From assembly GCA_017469885.1 (NCBI GenBank), contig JAFUFO010000038.1:1-64000 (forward strand): 64,000 nt of DNA, written 5' to 3'. The position numbers and the translations under genes were made by a program. Positions 24,511 to 32,865 of the stretch are shown piece by piece. Within the stretch, counting starts at the first letter, position 1. Each line of letters opens with the position of its first letter. The notes below the pieces were generated by a model. It searched no databases and had not been told where the DNA came from. It saw only the letters and a list, made by a program, of their open reading frames with translations. The DNA comes from Solobacterium sp. (lineage in GTDB: Bacteria; Bacillota_I; Bacilli_A; Erysipelotrichales; Erysipelotrichaceae).

Positions 24511-25332
24511 ATGATACATGAAATAGCTCCTCATGCCTTCCACAATGAGTGGAAGCCCCGTCAGCCGGTCAGCGATGATGTCGTGTTTGGCTATGACGGA
24601 CGAAACGTGATCCTGAAATCGGATCAGACTTTTTTTCATTACGGTGAACTTGATCACCGGCATGAATTCATTTACCTCTTCAGTATTGATGAAACCGCTT
24701 TTTATCTGACGGAAATCCCGCAGACAAACAAGGCGATCTCACTGAATATCAACTTCGCACGATACTATGAGCCCCGCATGCTGGGATTTGCCTGCGTGAC
24801 CGGCTGGCATCTTTACCGCTGGCAGAAACGCAACCGGTTCTGCGGTTCCTGCGGAACCCATATGATTCCAGACGGAAAAGAGCGCGCGCTGCGCTGCCCG
24901 CAATGCGGAAACATCGTATATCCCCGCATCAATCCTGCCGTGATCGTCGGCATTCTGAACAAAAACGATGAACTGCTCATCACCCAGTATGCCATCTCCC
25001 ACGGAGAATACCGCCATGATGCCCTGGTCGCAGGCTATTGCGAAATCGGAGAGACCGTGGAAGACTGTGTCCGCCGCGAAGTAATGGAAGAAACCGGTCT
25101 AGCGGTAACGAACCTGCGTTATTTCAAATCACAGCCCTGGTCCTTCTCCGAATCCATTCTGTTCGGCTTTTTCTGCGATGTGGAAGACGACAGTATCTCT
25201 CTGGACCGTCAGGAACTGAAATCTGCCGTCTGGAAGAAACAGGACGACAGTTATGATCTGCCTGGTGAAGCATCCCTTACCGCAAATATGATCCGGTACT
25301 TCCGGGATGGAAAGGTACACTATGGACTTTAA
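24511..25332 (+). CDS. nudC: NAD+ diphosphatase (NADH pyrophosphatase)
   Basis: This 273-residue Nudix hydrolase splits NAD(H) to NMN(H) and AMP, and can remove NAD caps from RNA. The zinc ribbon is present (FCGSCGTHM and RCPQCGNIVYPR), then the Nudix box GYCEIGETVEDCVRREVMEETG. The NudC-specific SQPWSF follows. Length matches the family. The ATG has no strong Shine-Dalgarno site and a terminator-like hairpin lies just upstream. The 3' end overlaps the start of the GH13 gene by 11 bases, so the two form an operon. Confidence 0.92.
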   Translation: MIHEIAPHAFHNEWKPRQPVSDDVVFGYDGRNVILKSDQTFFHYGELDHRHEFIYLFSIDETAFYLTEIPQTNKAISLNINFARYYEPRMLGFACVTGWHLYRWQKRNRFCGSCGTHMIPDGKERALRCPQCGNIVYPRINPAVIVGILNKNDELLITQYAISHGEYRHDALVAGYCEIGETVEDCVRREVMEETGLAVTNLRYFKSQPWSFSESILFGFFCDVEDDSISLDRQELKSAVWKKQDDSYDLPGEASLTANMIRYFRDGKVHYGL

Positions 25333-26629
25333 TCAGAATATTTATCAGATCTATCCGATCGGATTCTGCGGTGCTCCGAAGGAAAATGACGGGAACCTTG
25401 AACATCGTATCCTGCATGTTCTGGACTGGATTCCGCATCTGCAGAAACTCGGCATTACCCGCGTGCTGTTCAATCCGGTCTTTGAAAGCGACCGACACGG
25501 ATATGATACCCGTGATTTCACAACGCTGGACTGCCGGCTCGGGACAAATGAGGATTTCAAAACCGTCTGTGACAGGCTTCATGAGGCTGGAATCGGTGTG
25601 ATTCTCGACGGCGTATTCAATCATGTCGGCCGCGGTTTTCCGTTCTTTCAGGATGTGATTGAAAAGAAATGGGACAGCCCCTACAAGGACTGGTTCTATA
25701 TCAACTTCAATGACGGCTGGGCAGAGGACGGCTTCACCTACGGCAACTGGGAAGGCCATAACGAACTCGTCAAACTGAATCTTCAGAATCCCGCAGTCAG
25801 AGAATATCTGTATCAGGCAGTGGAATCCTGGATTACACAGTTTCATATCGACGGCATCCGCCTGGATGTTGCCTACTGCCTGGACCGTTCCTTCCTGCGG
25901 GAATTCTCCGACTACATGCATCATAATCATCCGGACATCCTGCTGATCGGTGAGATGATCGGCGGCGACTACAATGTTCTCCTACGGGACGGCGGTCTCG
26001 ACAGCGTCACCAATTATGAGTGCCGCAAGGGACTGTTCTCTTCGATGAACTCCCGCAATCTCTTCGAGATCGGTTATTCCCTGAACCGCCAGTTCGGTCC
26101 GGATCCCTGGTGTCTTTACACCGGCCGGCGTCTGCTCAGCTTTGCGGACAATCATGACGTGGACCGCCTTGCCAGTGTTCTGACCGATCCCCGCGATCTG
26201 CCGTTAACTTATGATCTGATCTATGCCATGCCCGGCATTCCATGTATCTATTACGGCAGTGAATGGGGCATTGAAGGCAAGCGCACCCGGCACAGTGATG
26301 ATGACCTGCGCCCGTACCTCGATCATCCGGAATGGAATGAACTCTGTGATCATCTGGCAAAGCTCGCAGCGATCCGCAGAGAATGTTCTCCCCTTACCTA
26401 TGGTGATTACCGGCAGGTCTTTACCCGCAATGAACAGTGGGCGTTCACCCGCACTGACGATACGGGAATTCTGCTGTTTGCGCTGAACATCTCCGACCAG
26501 GAGGCAGTCATTTATCCGGACGGGAATATTCCGGAAGGCGTGGACCTGTTAACCGGAAAAAAGACGAATCCCTCAGAAGGAATCCGTCTTGCCGGTAAAT
26601 CCAGTGTATTTGTATACTGCCGTTTCTGA
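25322..26629 (+). CDS. GH13 alpha-amylase family glycoside hydrolase
   Basis: This 435-residue cytoplasmic enzyme has no signal peptide and belongs to the alpha-amylase family acting on alpha-glucans or maltodextrins. The four conserved regions are seen: DGVFNHVG, GIRLDVAY (nucleophile Asp), LIGEM (acid Glu) and FADNHDVDR. It lacks the N-terminal domain of neopullulanases and is at the short end for the family. AAAGG seven bases before the second in-frame ATG sets the start inside the end of nudC. The bond specificity cannot be told. It is convergent with the next gene with a one-base gap. Confidence 0.85.
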   Translation: MDFNQNIYQIYPIGFCGAPKENDGNLEHRILHVLDWIPHLQKLGITRVLFNPVFESDRHGYDTRDFTTLDCRLGTNEDFKTVCDRLHEAGIGVILDGVFNHVGRGFPFFQDVIEKKWDSPYKDWFYINFNDGWAEDGFTYGNWEGHNELVKLNLQNPAVREYLYQAVESWITQFHIDGIRLDVAYCLDRSFLREFSDYMHHNHPDILLIGEMIGGDYNVLLRDGGLDSVTNYECRKGLFSSMNSRNLFEIGYSLNRQFGPDPWCLYTGRRLLSFADNHDVDRLASVLTDPRDLPLTYDLIYAMPGIPCIYYGSEWGIEGKRTRHSDDDLRPYLDHPEWNELCDHLAKLAAIRRECSPLTYGDYRQVFTRNEQWAFTRTDDTGILLFALNISDQEAVIYPDGNIPEGVDLLTGKKTNPSEGIRLAGKSSVFVYCRF

Positions 26630-26630
26630 A

Positions 26631-29276
26631 TTACTGATTGAAATACTCTGCCGCTTTATCCATCGACATTTCCGCATAGTGTTCGCCGGCAACTTCATAG
26701 CCGATTGCGAAGATCCAGCAGGCACGGCGTGCCCCCTCCTCATCGTCGGGACATGCCCGCAGCTGCGCGGTTGTGTTGGGGTAATAGAGCGGCATTTCAT
26801 ATTGCAGGAAATGAAGCTGCCCGTCAATGGTTGTGGCATCGTAGCCGTTGGCTTCACACCACTTGAACAGATTGTCTTTCCGCTCCCCGCCCCACTGGCA
26901 GAGACCGTAATAACCTAGTCCGTTGTCAGCGGTTGAATTGAAGCGGCTCTCCCGGTGCATGTTGGCAAGCACACCGCATGCCTGAGCTTTGGAAAGTCCC
27001 ATGTTACCGGTCAGGAAGTTATAGATCTGTCCTTTTGGATCGGAAGAATTCGGAACCACATTTACAGGTGCAGCCGCCTCTGCAGTCGCTGTCGGTGTCG
27101 GTTCGGGTGTTGAGGCCGTGGTCGGCTCTGGCGTCGGTGTCGGTGTCGGTTCTGGTTCACTGACGATAACCGGGACAGAACGTTCGGTCCGGTTGCCTGC
27201 CTTGTCCATCGCCGAAACGGTCACGGTATATTCTCCAACAACAGAGGTATCGACCGCACTTGTGACGGTAAAGCATCCCGGAGAAGGCGTATCCGCATAG
27301 GTCAGCGCACCGTCAGTACCGTCCGTTACGGAAAGAATCAGATCTCCCGGATTGAAACTGTCGCCGACGGTCAGATTTACACGTTCTGCCGCAAATACAA
27401 CTTCCGGAGCGGTTGTGTCCGCAGCGGCAGAAGCTGTCGGATTGGGACTTGGCGTCGGCGTTGAAGTCGGTTCCGGGGTCTCGGCAGGCTTCGGCGTTTC
27501 TTCCGCTCCTTCCGTGCCGGTTCCGACAATGACTTTGAAGGCTTTTACCGAACGGTTTCCGGAGCTGTCTTCCGATACTACCCGAATCACATAGGTTCCA
27601 TCCTTAGCGGCGTCAAAACTTCCGTCATCAATCGTCCAGTCCAGTTTCCCTTCCACCGGATCGATTACCGATACCACGTTGTCTGCCGGATCAAATGCAT
27701 CGCCCGGATTGATACGGATAATGCTTTTCTCCAGCGTAATGATCGGTGACATCAGATCTTTCACTGTGAAGGTTTTTTTATACTCCCGGCTGACCTGTGT
27801 ACCGTCGTCCGTCTCTGCGGTAACAATATAGGTCATTTCCTGATCACCCATTTTCATGGTATCGATCGTGCCTTCAAACGTCAGATCACCGCCGGCCGCA
27901 AGCACAAAGTCCGACGGGTGGAAATCGCCGCCGTATTCCACGACTGCGTCTTCCCGGAACTGTATGGTCAGAGTTTCATATAATTTCTGTTCTTCCGCTT
28001 TTGAGAGTCCGCGCGCGGGGAAACCGCGTGTGACACCCCAGAAAATCAGAAAGCCAAGTGCAGCACAGAAAATCAGTCCAAGCAGCGTCATCAGAATACC
28101 GCGGATCGGAAAGCCGCGGCGTTCTTCCGCCACTGCAGGTTCAGCACCATCCTCGTTCAGCGCACGCTCTTTTTTCTGCAGCGCCGCAAGAATTGCGTCA
28201 CCTGCCTTGCCGGACGTTTTCGCCGGGTTTTCCAGTTCCGCCGCAGGGATTTCAGGTGCTGTTTCAACAGCGGTTTCCGGCTCTGCCGGTTCCATCTCTG
28301 TTTCCGTATACGCGCTGGTCTCTTCAGTATCTTCCGGTTCCGCTTCGTAATCCGGTTCCGGTTCAAACTGCGACTTGAGAAGCGCGTTCATATCCTCGGG
28401 TAGCGGCGCAGCAATGACCCGGCTTTCGCGGGTAAACGGCGTCAGAAAGTCAATCCTTGAACAGTGCAGTGCCGGGCGGTTCAGAATATCCGTCGTGCCG
28501 CCATAGAGTTCATCTCCGATCAGCGGGTGACCCGCCGCAGCCATATGGGCGCGGATCTGATGCGTCCGGCCGGTCTCAATTTCCACATTGAGCTCGGAAA
28601 CGGACTGCCCGCTGACATGGAACTCATTCACAACGCGGAAAATCGTCAGTGCCGGTTTTCCGTTAGGATCTTTTGTCACACGGCGGCGCTCGCCTTCCGC
28701 TTTGGCAATCGGCGCATCAATCATGCCCTGTTTGATATCAAAGATGCCTGACACAAAGGCGGTGTAGTCCTTGTTCAGCTTTCCGTCTTCCCGGTCCCTG
28801 GAAAGACGGGAAGCCGCAAGCCGGTTCTTCGCAAAGAGAATCGCACCGCTGACATCCTTGTCCAGCCGGCCGACCGGGCGGATGACAAAATCCTCTCCCT
28901 TCCGCCGGTAATAGGATGCCAGAATGGAACCCATGGAATCATCAATATGACCGTGTACCGGATGGCATGGAATACCGGCCGGCTTGTTTACAACAACGAC
29001 ATCTTCATCTTCATACAGAATGTCCGGTTCAACATCCAGCATCGGAATCTGTCCGGTCTGCGCCTCCGGAAACCGCAGGGTCAGCGTGTCACCGACCCGC
29101 ATGCGGTCATTCACCTTGATCCGTTTCCCGTTCAAAAGGATCTCTCCGTCAAACTTCAGGCGGGAGATCTCTTTTCTTGATAATTTCAGATCACGGGTCA
29201 TTACCTGCCGGACGCTTCCGTTATCGGAGAGCGGCCAGTCAGACAGACTCATCTGGTACGTTATTTCCTTTTCCAT
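26631..29276 (-). CDS. RluA-type pseudouridine synthase fused through a membrane helix to Ig-like and phage-tail lysozyme domains
   Basis: One uninterrupted frame of about 881 residues. Residues 11-70 look like an S4 RNA-binding domain; 80-300 are a RluA-family synthase with RPVGRLDKDVSG (catalytic Asp139) and TGRTHQIRAHMAAAGHPLIGD. A Glu/Pro-rich linker (304-385) ends in EERR, followed by a membrane helix (391-417). Beyond it come two Ig-like repeats (about 505-586 and 622-706), each followed by Pro/Thr-rich spacers, and a C-terminal phage-tail lysozyme-like domain (743-881) with ANMHRESRFN (Glu776) and GLCQWGGER. Topology predicts the synthase inside and the muramidase outside. No good ribosome site is seen; an ATG at 29306 is an alternative start. 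It follows prfB. Confidence 0.85.
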   Translation of the reverse strand: MEKEITYQMSLSDWPLSDNGSVRQVMTRDLKLSRKEISRLKFDGEILLNGKRIKVNDRMRVGDTLTLRFPEAQTGQIPMLDVEPDILYEDEDVVVVNKPAGIPCHPVHGHIDDSMGSILASYYRRKGEDFVIRPVGRLDKDVSGAILFAKNRLAASRLSRDREDGKLNKDYTAFVSGIFDIKQGMIDAPIAKAEGERRRVTKDPNGKPALTIFRVVNEFHVSGQSVSELNVEIETGRTHQIRAHMAAAGHPLIGDELYGGTTDILNRPALHCSRIDFLTPFTRESRVIAAPLPEDMNALLKSQFEPEPDYEAEPEDTEETSAYTETEMEPAEPETAVETAPEIPAAELENPAKTSGKAGDAILAALQKKERALNEDGAEPAVAEERRGFPIRGILMTLLGLIFCAALGFLIFWGVTRGFPARGLSKAEEQKLYETLTIQFREDAVVEYGGDFHPSDFVLAAGGDLTFEGTIDTMKMGDQEMTYIVTAETDDGTQVSREYKKTFTVKDLMSPIITLEKSIIRINPGDAFDPADNVVSVIDPVEGKLDWTIDDGSFDAAKDGTYVIRVVSEDSSGNRSVKAFKVIVGTGTEGAEETPKPAETPEPTSTPTPSPNPTASAAADTTAPEVVFAAERVNLTVGDSFNPGDLILSVTDGTDGALTYADTPSPGCFTVTSAVDTSVVGEYTVTVSAMDKAGNRTERSVPVIVSEPEPTPTPTPEPTTASTPEPTPTATAEAAAPVNVVPNSSDPKGQIYNFLTGNMGLSKAQACGVLANMHRESRFNSTADNGLGYYGLCQWGGERKDNLFKWCEANGYDATTIDGQLHFLQYEMPLYYPNTTAQLRACPDDEEGARRACWIFAIGYEVAGEHYAEMSMDKAAEYFNQ

Positions 29277-29323
29277 GGCTGAATCATCGATTCGTGATCC
29301 CGGCATTGCCGGGCCGGTCCGCG

Positions 29324-30425
29324 TTATGCGATCTGGGACCGGAGATAGCTGTAAATAAACTCGTCCAGGTCGCCGTCCATGACGCCCTGAATGTTTCCTG
29401 CTTCACAGCCGGTGCGCAGGTCCTTGACCATCGTATACGGCTGGAATACGTAGGAACGGATCTGGGAACCCCATTCGTTCGCCTTGACTTCACCCTTGAT
29501 CTCCGCCATCTTCTTCGCCTGTTCCTGAATACGGATCTGAAGCAGCTTTGATTTCAGCATGTTCAGGCACGCTTCCCGGTTCTGAAGCTGGGAGCGCTGG
29601 GTCTGACAGAAGACGGTGATATTCAGCGGCTTATAAGTCATACGCACCGCGGAGTCGGTTTTGTTAATATGCTGGCCGCCGGCACCGGAGGATCGCATGG
29701 TGATGACTTCAAGATCCTTGTCATCGATCTCGATATCGAGGTCATCCTCAAACTCCGGCATGACTTCCACACTCGCAAAGCTGGTATGGCGGCGGGCGTT
29801 GGAATCAAACGGGGAAATGCGCACCAGACGGTGAACACCGTTTTCCGCCTTCAGATAACCGTAAGCCATCGGACCTTCGATCTTCAGGCTGCAGGATTTC
29901 ATGCCGGCTTCTTCACCGTCCTGGTAGTCCAGAACGTTTACCTTGAAGCCATGGCGTTCTGCCCAACGGACATACATCCGGTACAGCATGCCTGCCCAGT
30001 CCATCGCTTCCGTGCCGCCGGCACCGGGATGGATTTCAAGAATGCAGTTGTGGTTGTCATAAGGACCGCTGAGCAGGACCTGAATTTCAAATGCATCGAA
30101 GTCCTTCATGACACTCCGGTAATCCTCTTCGACAAGGGCTGCCAGTTCATCGTCAAACGACTGGTTCAGCTCTGCGACGGATTCGGAGAGATCGCCCATG
30201 GATGCGGTCAGGCGCTCATGATTTTCCACCAGTGCCTTGAGCGCGTTATTGTTTCGGATCAGCGCCTGTGCTTTCTTCTGGTCATTCCAGAAGTCGGCAG
30301 CGCTCATCGCTTTTTCATTTTCGGCAATTGTCTTCTTTTTCCCGGCCAGGTCAAAGAGAGGAGCCAAGCTGCTCCAATTTGGCCTGGCAGCGGGCAATGC
30401 CCTGTTTCATTTCATAAAGTTCCAT
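29324..30425 (-). CDS. prfB: peptide chain release factor 2, with programmed +1 frameshift
   Basis: This factor reads UGA and UAA stop codons. Translation starts at the ATG at 30425 (AAGGAG six bases before it), runs 24 codons and meets an in-frame TGA at 30351-30353 in the context CTT-TGA-C. A +1 shift there joins it to the main frame (GAC CTG GCC), giving about 366 residues. The main part has HPGAGGTEAMDWA with the GGQ-domain region, and RSSGAGGQHINKTDSAVR with the catalytic GGQ. The SPF codon-reading motif appears as ISPFDSNARRH. The usual internal Shine-Dalgarno before the slip site is replaced by a hairpin. It lies ten bases after secA. Confidence 0.95.
30350..30375 (-). other. prfB programmed frameshift site with upstream hairpin
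   Basis: The slip site CTT-TGA-C is at 30350-30356. GGAGC (30371-30375) and GCTCC (30360-30364) pair around a six-base loop and end three bases before the slip codon, where AGGGGG-type sequence normally sits. Confidence 0.8.
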
Positions 30426-30435
30426 CAAATACTCC

Positions 30436-32829
30436 TTACGCCTGTTTCGGCTGTTCGTTATTCACAACGACCCGGACTTTCATGCAGTAGGCAACGATGT
30501 CCTGGGCGATATTGTGCATCATGTTTTCAAACATTGCGAATCCTTCGGTCACATATGCCTGAAGGGGGTTGTCCTGCGCATAGCTTCGCAGACCGATACC
30601 GTCACGCAGTTTCGACATCATATCGATGTGATCAACCCACGCGCGGTCGATGACCTCGAGCGACATGTTGCGCTCATAGCTGCGCATCTGGGTGCGGACC
30701 GGATCAATCTTCTGATCATAGGCGTTCCATGCTTTCTCGTTGATGAGCGCGGTCACATCCTCAGCCGGTTTGCCCGCGATGTCACCTTCCGTAATCAGAT
30801 CTCCGAAGCCGATCTTCTTCAGCGATTCCAGCAGTCCCGGCACATTCAGTTCCATCGAACGGGATTCCGGATCGATGTTGGCGCCGACCGTATCGGAGAT
30901 GACACGCTCGAACATCTGGCGGATAACGGTATGTACATCCTCATGATCAAGAATGTAGTTTCTCTGATCGTACATGACCTCACGCTGCTGGCGGAGCACA
31001 TCATCGTACTGCAGGAGCGTTTTACGGGCATCGAAGTTAACGCCTTCAACACGCTTCTGTGCCGAGTTGATCGACTTGGTTACGGTCTTGGATTCCACCG
31101 CGGTGTCACCGAGGGATTTGAAGATGCCCTCAAGACGCTCGCTGCCGAACCGGACCATCAGATCATCCTGAACGGATACATAGAATCTGGATTCACCCGG
31201 GTCGCCCTGACGTCCGGAACGTCCGCGCAGCTGGTTATCGATACGTCTGGATTCATGACGCTCACTGCCGAGTACGCAGAGACCGCCGAGTTCACGCACA
31301 CCCTCACCGAGCTTGATATCGGTTCCTCGGCCGGCCATGTTGGTCGCGATGGTAACAGCGCCCTTCTGACCTGCCTTGGCAATGATTTCCGCTTCTCTTG
31401 CATGGTTCTTTGCGTTGAGCACTTCGTGATGAATCTTTTCCTTCTTCAGCATGTTGTGGATGAGTTCAGAGGTCTCAACCGCAATCGTACCGACCAGCAC
31501 CGGCTGTCCTTTTTCGTTGCGGGCCTTGACCTCTTCCACAAGGGCACGGAATTTGGCATCCTTCGTTCCGAAGATTGCATCCGGCTGGTCGATTCTTGCG
31601 ACCGGACGATTGGTCGGAATCTCATATACCAGCATGTTATAAATTTCCGTGAATTCTTCTTCCTCGGTCTTTGCGGTACCGGTCATACCGGCAAGCTTGT
31701 TGTAAAGACGGAAGAAGTTCTGATAGGTGATCGTCGCAAGGATCGTTGTCTCCTGACGGATCGAGATGCCTTCCTTGGCGCATACCGCCTGATGAAGACC
31801 GTCGGACCATTCCCGTCCCTTCATGAGACGTCCGGTGTTCGGGTCGACGATGTTGATTTCATCGTTTTCCGTATCAACGACATACTCAACATCCTTCATC
31901 ATGATGTAGTTTGCCTTCAGTGCCTGGCCGATGCGGTGCAGAAGCTGAGTGTGTTCCAGGTTGTACAGGTTGTCAACACGGAATACCTTTTCCGCCTTGG
32001 CAACGCCGGCTTCAGTCAGCTGTACGGTACGGGACTTTACATCCACTTCGTATTCACCCGGCTTGACGATCTCATCACCTTCCGTAATCTGTTCCTTCAG
32101 GCTCTTGGCAAAGCGGTCTGCCTGCAGGTACAGGTTTGCGGTCTGACGCATACCGCCGGAAATAATCAGCGGTGTACGCGATTCATCGATCAGGATCGAG
32201 TCAACTTCATCGACAAGCGCAAAGTTGAGTCCGCGCTGTACGCGGTCTTTCGCATTCTTGACCATGTTGTCACGGAGGTAGTCAAAGCCAAGCTCCGAGT
32301 TGGTCGTATAAGTAATGTCGCAGTTGTATGCGGCACGTTTCTGCGCCGGTGTCATCTGACGCAGATTGAGACCGACCGTCAGTCCGAGGAACCGGTGGAT
32401 CTGCCCCATCCATTCCGAGTCACGCTGGGACAGGTATTCGTTGACGGTTACGACATGCACGCCCTTGCCTTCCAGTGCATTAAGGTATACTGCCATGACC
32501 GAGGTCAGGGTCTTACCTTCACCGGTCTTCATTTCGGCGATGTCACCGCCCTGCATGACCGCCGCACCCATGAGCTGCACGGGATACGGGAATTCTCCGA
32601 TTACTCTGCGGCACGCCTCACGCGCGGTCGCAAACGCTTCCGGAAGAATGTCATCCAGTGTCTTTCCTTCCGCAAGGAGCTGACGGAAGCGGGGCGTTTC
32701 CGCCTGCAGTTCCTCATTGCTCATCTGCGCGTATTTCTCTTCCAGTGCAAGCACCGGTTTGATTTTCTTTTCTACTTCTTTCAGACGCCGGCCGTCGACG
32801 TTCAAAAGCTTATCAAGTATTCCAGCCAT
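30436..32829 (-). CDS. secA: preprotein translocase ATPase SecA
   Basis: This 797-residue motor pushes proteins through SecYEG. Helicase motifs are seen: MKTGEGKTLTS (Walker A), LVDEVDSILIDE (Walker B), GTIAVETSELI and ATNMAGRGTDIKLGEGV. The SecA-type RSGRQGDPGESRFYVS is complete, and the helical scaffold region (VDHIDMMSKLRDGIGLRSYAQ) is normal. The C-terminus ends without the usual zinc-binding Cys/His tail, so it is a short form. AGGAGG eight bases before the ATG at 32829 sets the start. It has its own strong promoter and is followed by prfB. Confidence 0.96.
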   Translation of the reverse strand: MAGILDKLLNVDGRRLKEVEKKIKPVLALEEKYAQMSNEELQAETPRFRQLLAEGKTLDDILPEAFATAREACRRVIGEFPYPVQLMGAAVMQGGDIAEMKTGEGKTLTSVMAVYLNALEGKGVHVVTVNEYLSQRDSEWMGQIHRFLGLTVGLNLRQMTPAQKRAAYNCDITYTTNSELGFDYLRDNMVKNAKDRVQRGLNFALVDEVDSILIDESRTPLIISGGMRQTANLYLQADRFAKSLKEQITEGDEIVKPGEYEVDVKSRTVQLTEAGVAKAEKVFRVDNLYNLEHTQLLHRIGQALKANYIMMKDVEYVVDTENDEINIVDPNTGRLMKGREWSDGLHQAVCAKEGISIRQETTILATITYQNFFRLYNKLAGMTGTAKTEEEEFTEIYNMLVYEIPTNRPVARIDQPDAIFGTKDAKFRALVEEVKARNEKGQPVLVGTIAVETSELIHNMLKKEKIHHEVLNAKNHAREAEIIAKAGQKGAVTIATNMAGRGTDIKLGEGVRELGGLCVLGSERHESRRIDNQLRGRSGRQGDPGESRFYVSVQDDLMVRFGSERLEGIFKSLGDTAVESKTVTKSINSAQKRVEGVNFDARKTLLQYDDVLRQQREVMYDQRNYILDHEDVHTVIRQMFERVISDTVGANIDPESRSMELNVPGLLESLKKIGFGDLITEGDIAGKPAEDVTALINEKAWNAYDQKIDPVRTQMRSYERNMSLEVIDRAWVDHIDMMSKLRDGIGLRSYAQDNPLQAYVTEGFAMFENMMHNIAQDIVAYCMKVRVVVNNEQPKQA

Positions 32830-32865
32830 AATAAAAACCTCCTGATCGTATAAATCAGCCAATTT

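Follow-up and report, generated by a model that had tools for sequence, protein, structure and literature searches.

A pseudouridine synthase and a lysozyme joined across a membrane helix in one gene of a Solobacterium clade

Results

A single long frame behind prfB

The window analyzed here is a stretch of 64,000 nucleotides from Solobacterium sp. (assembly GCA_017469885.1, contig JAFUFO010000038.1). On its minus strand, a gene at 26631-29276 encodes, in order, a RluA-type pseudouridine synthase, a linker, a transmembrane (TM) helix, three Ig-like domains and a lysozyme. It runs from an ATG at 29276 to a stop at 26631 as one open frame of 881 aa, with an alternative ATG at 29306. The preliminary description of this DNA had placed the gene between the same limits, correctly and with the strand left unstated, and had reported a single uninterrupted frame, which we also find: there is no stop within the 881 codons.

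Upstream and in the same direction lies prfB, which encodes RF2 (minus strand, 29324-30425, ATG at 30425) and carries its usual +1 programmed frameshift site, CTT-TGA-C, with the TGA at 30353-30351. Upstream of prfB is secA (minus strand, 30436-32862), a neighbor conserved in synteny. The 47-nt gap between prfB and the fusion gene (minus strand, 29277-29323) contains the hairpin CCCGGC-AAT-GCCGGG; a clear Shine-Dalgarno sequence is absent. Judged by eye, a hairpin stands immediately before the start codon in 19 of 22 fused-clade gaps, followed in several by T-runs; the window's own hairpin does not differ significantly from shuffled sequence (z -0.4). These gaps usually measure 17-58 nt, whereas in the sister clade described below there is mostly no gap, the gene overlapping prfB or directly adjoining it. 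The hairpin in the gap may act as an insulator or attenuator of the fusion gene.

The wider neighborhood, conserved in the genus, comprises comFA, comFC, secA, prfB, amylase and Nudix genes, and is not that of a phage. In the window (24511-26629) the Nudix and amylase genes are distinct genes that overlap; in another genome, G083, they form one 748-aa frame (L126 5376-7622).

Several other accounts of the long frame can be set aside. An assembly, frameshift or sequencing error is ruled out because 22 genomes of widely varying identity share the stop-free frame, which is under purifying selection. Two separate genes in the window are ruled out by the missing stop and by the absence from the linker of any internal start with a Shine-Dalgarno match of at least 4/6, and the relatives have no such start at a conserved position. 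No minus-strand promoter-like or terminator-like site was found within the gene. Phage insertion is ruled out by the conserved housekeeping synteny.

Pairwise Nei-Gojobori estimates for 12 pairs gave dN/dS mostly of 0.03-0.15 for the synthase half and 0.02-0.10 for the lysozyme, and of 0.18-0.65 for the linker, with higher values for G051/G058 in both halves and for G080/G059 in the lysozyme. Both enzyme halves are thus under strong purifying selection and the linker is not. The joining of an RNA-modifying enzyme, a membrane helix and a lysozyme in one gene is genuine, and the resulting protein is an unusual one.

Domains of the fusion protein

From N- to C-terminus, Pfam recovers PF00849 (E 2.8e-33), Ig-like matches and PF18013 (E 6.9e-26). 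A full-length AlphaFold2 model (mean pLDDT 80), made with the help of 29 related sequences, has ordered ends, the synthase and the lysozyme, and flexible linkers.

The synthase half (residues 1-305; minus strand, 28362-29276) consists of an S4-like N-terminus and a catalytic domain. PF00849 matches residues 92-247 with 115.7 bits against a cut-off of 26.8, and the RluA-family model TIGR00005 scores 219.2 bits against 192.7; the S4 model PF01479 reaches 13.2 bits, below its cut-off of 22.8. The NCBIfam equivalog models for RluD, RluC and RluA assign the protein scores far below their cut-offs (139.9 bits against 351 for the RluD model NF008385), and the half is thus RluA/RluD-like without being an RluD by that measure. 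Its nearest solved structure by phmmer is RluD 1v9f (E 1.9e-36). By Foldseek, the top match is E. coli RluD, spanning the whole half including the N-terminal part; 2ist is matched at E 7.5e-22, and the fold matches include RluD solved on a pre-50S particle (7bl5). Like other members of the family, the fusion has the catalytic motifs: Asp139 of GRLDKD (codon at 28860-28862, minus strand), the conserved Tyr171, and Arg237 of GRTHQIR. Asp139 is kept in all 22 of the prfB-locus fusions. It differs from the family in reading GRLDKDVSG in place of HRLDxxTSG, the usual His before RLD being Gly throughout the fusion's synthase subfamily, and in its extension by linker, membrane helix and lysozyme. In G007 and G056 the position of Tyr171 is occupied by Phe and a Thr in the synthase motifs is changed to Lys, and the Tyr-to-Phe change suggests that the synthase half may not be fully active in every fusion. 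The lspA-linked rluD of the genome is another gene (L071 9182-10141), and the genome carries five other genes with PF00849, which makes the synthase of the fusion an additional paralog.

A disordered, Glu/Pro-rich and presumably cytoplasmic linker follows (residues 306-391; minus strand, 28104-28361), with pLDDT below 50 over most of its length, and then a membrane helix of 25 residues (392-416; minus strand, 28029-28103; hydropathy 2.69) that is also a helix in the model. This is the only hydrophobic segment in the protein. Beyond it, the AlphaFold2 model has three beta-sandwich domains: Ig-like domain A (residues 425-506; minus strand, 27759-28004), B (508-585; minus strand, 27522-27755), also found by Pfam and Foldseek, and C (622-707; minus strand, 27156-27413), matched by PF16403/Big_3. 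Disordered Thr/Pro-rich linkers run through this Ig-lysozyme part, and Foldseek matches lower in the ranking are bacterial surface proteins with Ig-like domains. Going by the domain types, we infer that the synthase lies inside the cell and the lysozyme outside; the charges in the 15-residue flanks of the helix favor an inside N-terminus in about 8 relatives, speak against it in 11 and tie in 2.

The lysozyme domain occupies residues 747-881 (minus strand, 26634-27038) and is assigned from the full-length model, in which residues 747-880 are ordered, together with sequence families. PF18013 (Phage_lysozyme2) matches residues 750-879 with 91.5 bits, well above its cut-off of 28.2, and the domain aligns weakly to phi29 gp13 (3csr, E 0.0016). 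In that alignment Glu776 (codon at 26949-26951, minus strand), invariant in 29 aligned lysozyme domains, falls on Glu45 of gp13, the suggested catalytic residue of that enzyme (PMC10394673). Among the best 50 Foldseek matches of the full chain, all taken up by RluA and Ig-like structures, phi29 gp13 does not appear. In a search of genome G000 the fusion gene was the sole copy of PF18013. Although it shares this domain with phi29 gp13, the fusion is not a tail protein: it sits at a chromosomal housekeeping locus, and its lysozyme is tethered to the membrane and to an RNA enzyme.

Most of the parts named in the preliminary description are recovered here: the RluA-type enzyme with its catalytic Asp in GRLDKD, the Glu/Pro linker, the single membrane helix, and a phage-tail-lysozyme-like domain with a conserved Glu. 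Its count of two Ig-like domains must be raised to three. Its view of such lysozymes as phage-borne is right insofar as PF18013 occurs in phage tails, but within this genus the domain belongs to a TM-Ig-lysozyme family resident on the chromosome, and its loci elsewhere in the phylum look conjugative.

Distribution in the genus and beyond

The same domain order, which the preliminary description had proposed to seek in related genomes, is present as one frame in 22 of 70 genomes of the GTDB genus Solobacterium, and always behind prfB at the secA-prfB locus where the contig shows it (G000, G050, G001, G022, G021, G009, G057, G084, G060, G080, G068, G079, G012, G059, G003, G065, G052, G005, G051, G058, G056 and G007; in G051 and G079 the contig ends within the lysozyme). 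Most of the non-fused genomes of the genus have a lone RluA gene of about 290-350 aa at that place, and two (G040 and G048) have no RluA gene behind prfB. Those related records that are named describe genomes of uncultured gut bacteria, several of them from cattle, sheep and reindeer.

Outside the genus, the stretch read behind prfB in ten genomes of other genera held no RluA match, and no RluA-fused frame occurs among the lysozyme matches listed from 316 genomes of the order. PF18013 itself was found in 12 of 392 genomes of the phylum; the five long frames that were read, each of at least 600 aa (L202-L206), have no RluA-like start and, by eye, mostly resemble hydrolases of conjugation loci.

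Within the genus there are also stand-alone TM-Ig-lysozymes (L048-L050, L061, L063 and L065, for example), which have the same order of membrane helix, Ig-like domains and lysozyme as the fusion but lack the RluA half or any cytoplasmic enzyme. They are encoded elsewhere in the genome, in G018, G019 and G046 directly behind pheT (identified by eye), and this kind of gene is the likely donor for the fusion. Among the matches listed, the only fused genome with a separate gene of this type is G065. That assembly has two comF-secA-prfB-RluA loci (L110, L132), one fused and one solo of the sister-clade type, in addition to the separate lysozyme, and is probably mixed.

Origin, splitting and loss

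In a tree of SecA and PrfB rooted on other genera, a single clade (30 genomes, SH-aLRT 97) holds all 22 fused genomes, along with one in which the halves are split and seven with a solo RluA gene. The sister clade of 35 comprises 33 genomes with a solo RluA gene and two without, and some of its members have a lysozyme gene elsewhere; the RluA tree likewise sets the solo sister group apart (support 95). This distribution suggests that the halves were probably fused once, inside the genus.

Departures from the fused state take several forms within the clade. The clearest is seen in G045, where the RluA protein (305 aa) and the TM-Ig-lysozyme (451 aa) are encoded by consecutive genes with an 8-nt overlap (ATGAGTGA), the second of which has an AAGGAG ribosome site; this two-gene state may be either ancestral or the product of a fission. 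The stand-alone lysozymes of G006, G018, G019 and G046 branch from within the fused lysozymes in the lysozyme tree (92/85, 90/86), as would be expected had they derived from a fusion. G017, G081 and G062 keep RluA and have no lysozyme match. One fusion followed by several reversals is the simplest reading of these trees, which are quick ones. A single clade of the fused genomes plus G045 is not rejected (p-AU 0.31), so there may have been fewer reversals.

G003 carries, besides its prfB-locus fusion, a second copy behind comFC (L045 7095-9401). This is a diverged RluA-TM-Ig protein in which RLD has become SLG, with loss of the catalytic Asp, and from which the lysozyme is gone; it is possibly a pseudo-enzyme scaffold.

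Discussion

Both halves of this protein come from known families, and it is their conserved arrangement that is new: in the open-access literature we found no account in which a pseudouridine synthase is linked to a membrane helix or a lysozyme, nor one of any RNA-modifying enzyme joined across the membrane to a wall hydrolase. A parallel in layout is provided by the RsgI anti-sigma factors, in which a cytoplasmic domain, a helix and an extracellular carbohydrate-related domain form one chain (PMC12203970). On its predicted topology, the fusion has the same order of cytoplasmic domain, single helix and extracellular domain; it differs in that the cytoplasmic part of RsgI is an anti-sigma domain, while that of the fusion is an RNA-modifying enzyme (PF00849). 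Because chains of the RsgI type are known, coupling between the cytoplasm and the outside is not impossible in principle.

The reading we favor, and hold to be somewhat better than an even bet, is that the gene encodes a genuine single polypeptide, a bifunctional protein tethered to the membrane, with each of its two enzymes carrying out a task of its own. The architecture, its conservation, the purifying selection on both halves and the retention of the catalytic residues are computed directly; the topology, the two activities and the absence of direct signaling between the halves are inferred. A resident TM-Ig-lysozyme gene would have come to be placed downstream of the prfB-linked RluA gene, and their frames would have been joined, most likely once and in one clade, a scenario drawn from the distributions and trees. 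The RluD-like synthase would then work in the cytoplasm on the flexible tether, of about 85 residues, of a single-pass membrane protein, and the three Ig-like domains with their Thr/Pro-rich linkers would hold the muramidase within the wall. The synthase half is probably active in RNA pseudouridylation and the lysozyme half in limited peptidoglycan cleavage. Joining them would give equal dosage and would fix how far the anchored lysozyme extends. Counting against such a bifunctional protein, either half may be released by proteolysis.

The preliminary description had raised a tie between RNA modification and the opening of the wall. In such an arrangement ribosomes or pre-50S particles would be bound by the synthase half close to the membrane, and this occupancy would tether or control the lysozyme so that wall opening followed translation or secretion activity. 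The conserved place behind secA and prfB would suit this arrangement, as would the fold match to RluD on the pre-50S particle and the existence of signaling proteins built like RsgI. E. coli rluD and RF2 also interact genetically (PMC5373646), and the position behind prfB fits that link, although the link has no need of a lysozyme. The halves have nevertheless been split, or one of them lost, several times in the clade; the linker, fast-evolving and disordered, would be a poor signal path; and an rluD linked to lspA is present apart from the fusion. The repeated splits and losses, together with the G003 paralog, argue that strict, direct coupling is not essential, and we regard such control as unlikely. 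Were it true, it would constitute a direct physical link from the translation machinery to peptidoglycan remodeling. One specific proposal, which we consider quite improbable, is that a synthase engaged with ribosomes or RNA at the membrane's inner face determines the place or the time of wall opening by the attached lysozyme, and so physically links translation, through the secA-prfB locus, to wall growth.

Alternatively, the RluA half might serve the lysozyme only as an anchor or as a plug in the cytoplasm, with no need of its RNA-modifying role. The G003 paralog has kept its RluA-TM-Ig part despite the change of RLD to SLG and lacks the lysozyme, the motif changes in G007 and G056 point the same way, and the genome has five other PF00849 genes. 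This option, also offered in the preliminary description, is nonetheless doubtful for the window gene, because its synthase retains an intact, conserved active site; across the 22 prfB-locus fusions the catalytic Asp persists under strong purifying selection, and the three genomes that lost the lysozyme and kept RluA run counter to what would be expected of an anchor. The fusion could also be a genomic convenience from which translation or proteolysis yields two working proteins, a soluble synthase and a membrane-bound or released lysozyme. Exactly these two proteins are encoded by the overlapping genes of G045, and the flexible linkers could be cleaved, but the gene offers neither the internal start nor the promoter-like or terminator-like site looked for above, and we think it very unlikely that it works as two. 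The 22 fused genomes, the adjacent two-gene state and the several apparent reversals make up a natural experiment in which function could be set against dosage or anchoring.

The membrane-anchored Ig-like stalk is combined with other partners as well. One protein of G016 (L157 168-2060) has the TM-Ig part with an L,D-transpeptidase (YkuD) at its end, which shows that the stalk bears other wall enzymes too. Three further frames (L154 5478-7142, L158 3354-5000 and L155 4548-6458) join a TM-Ig-lysozyme to a cytoplasmic part that is weakly sigma-70-like, at scores below the cut-offs, and represent a second kind of cytoplasm-to-lysozyme fusion.
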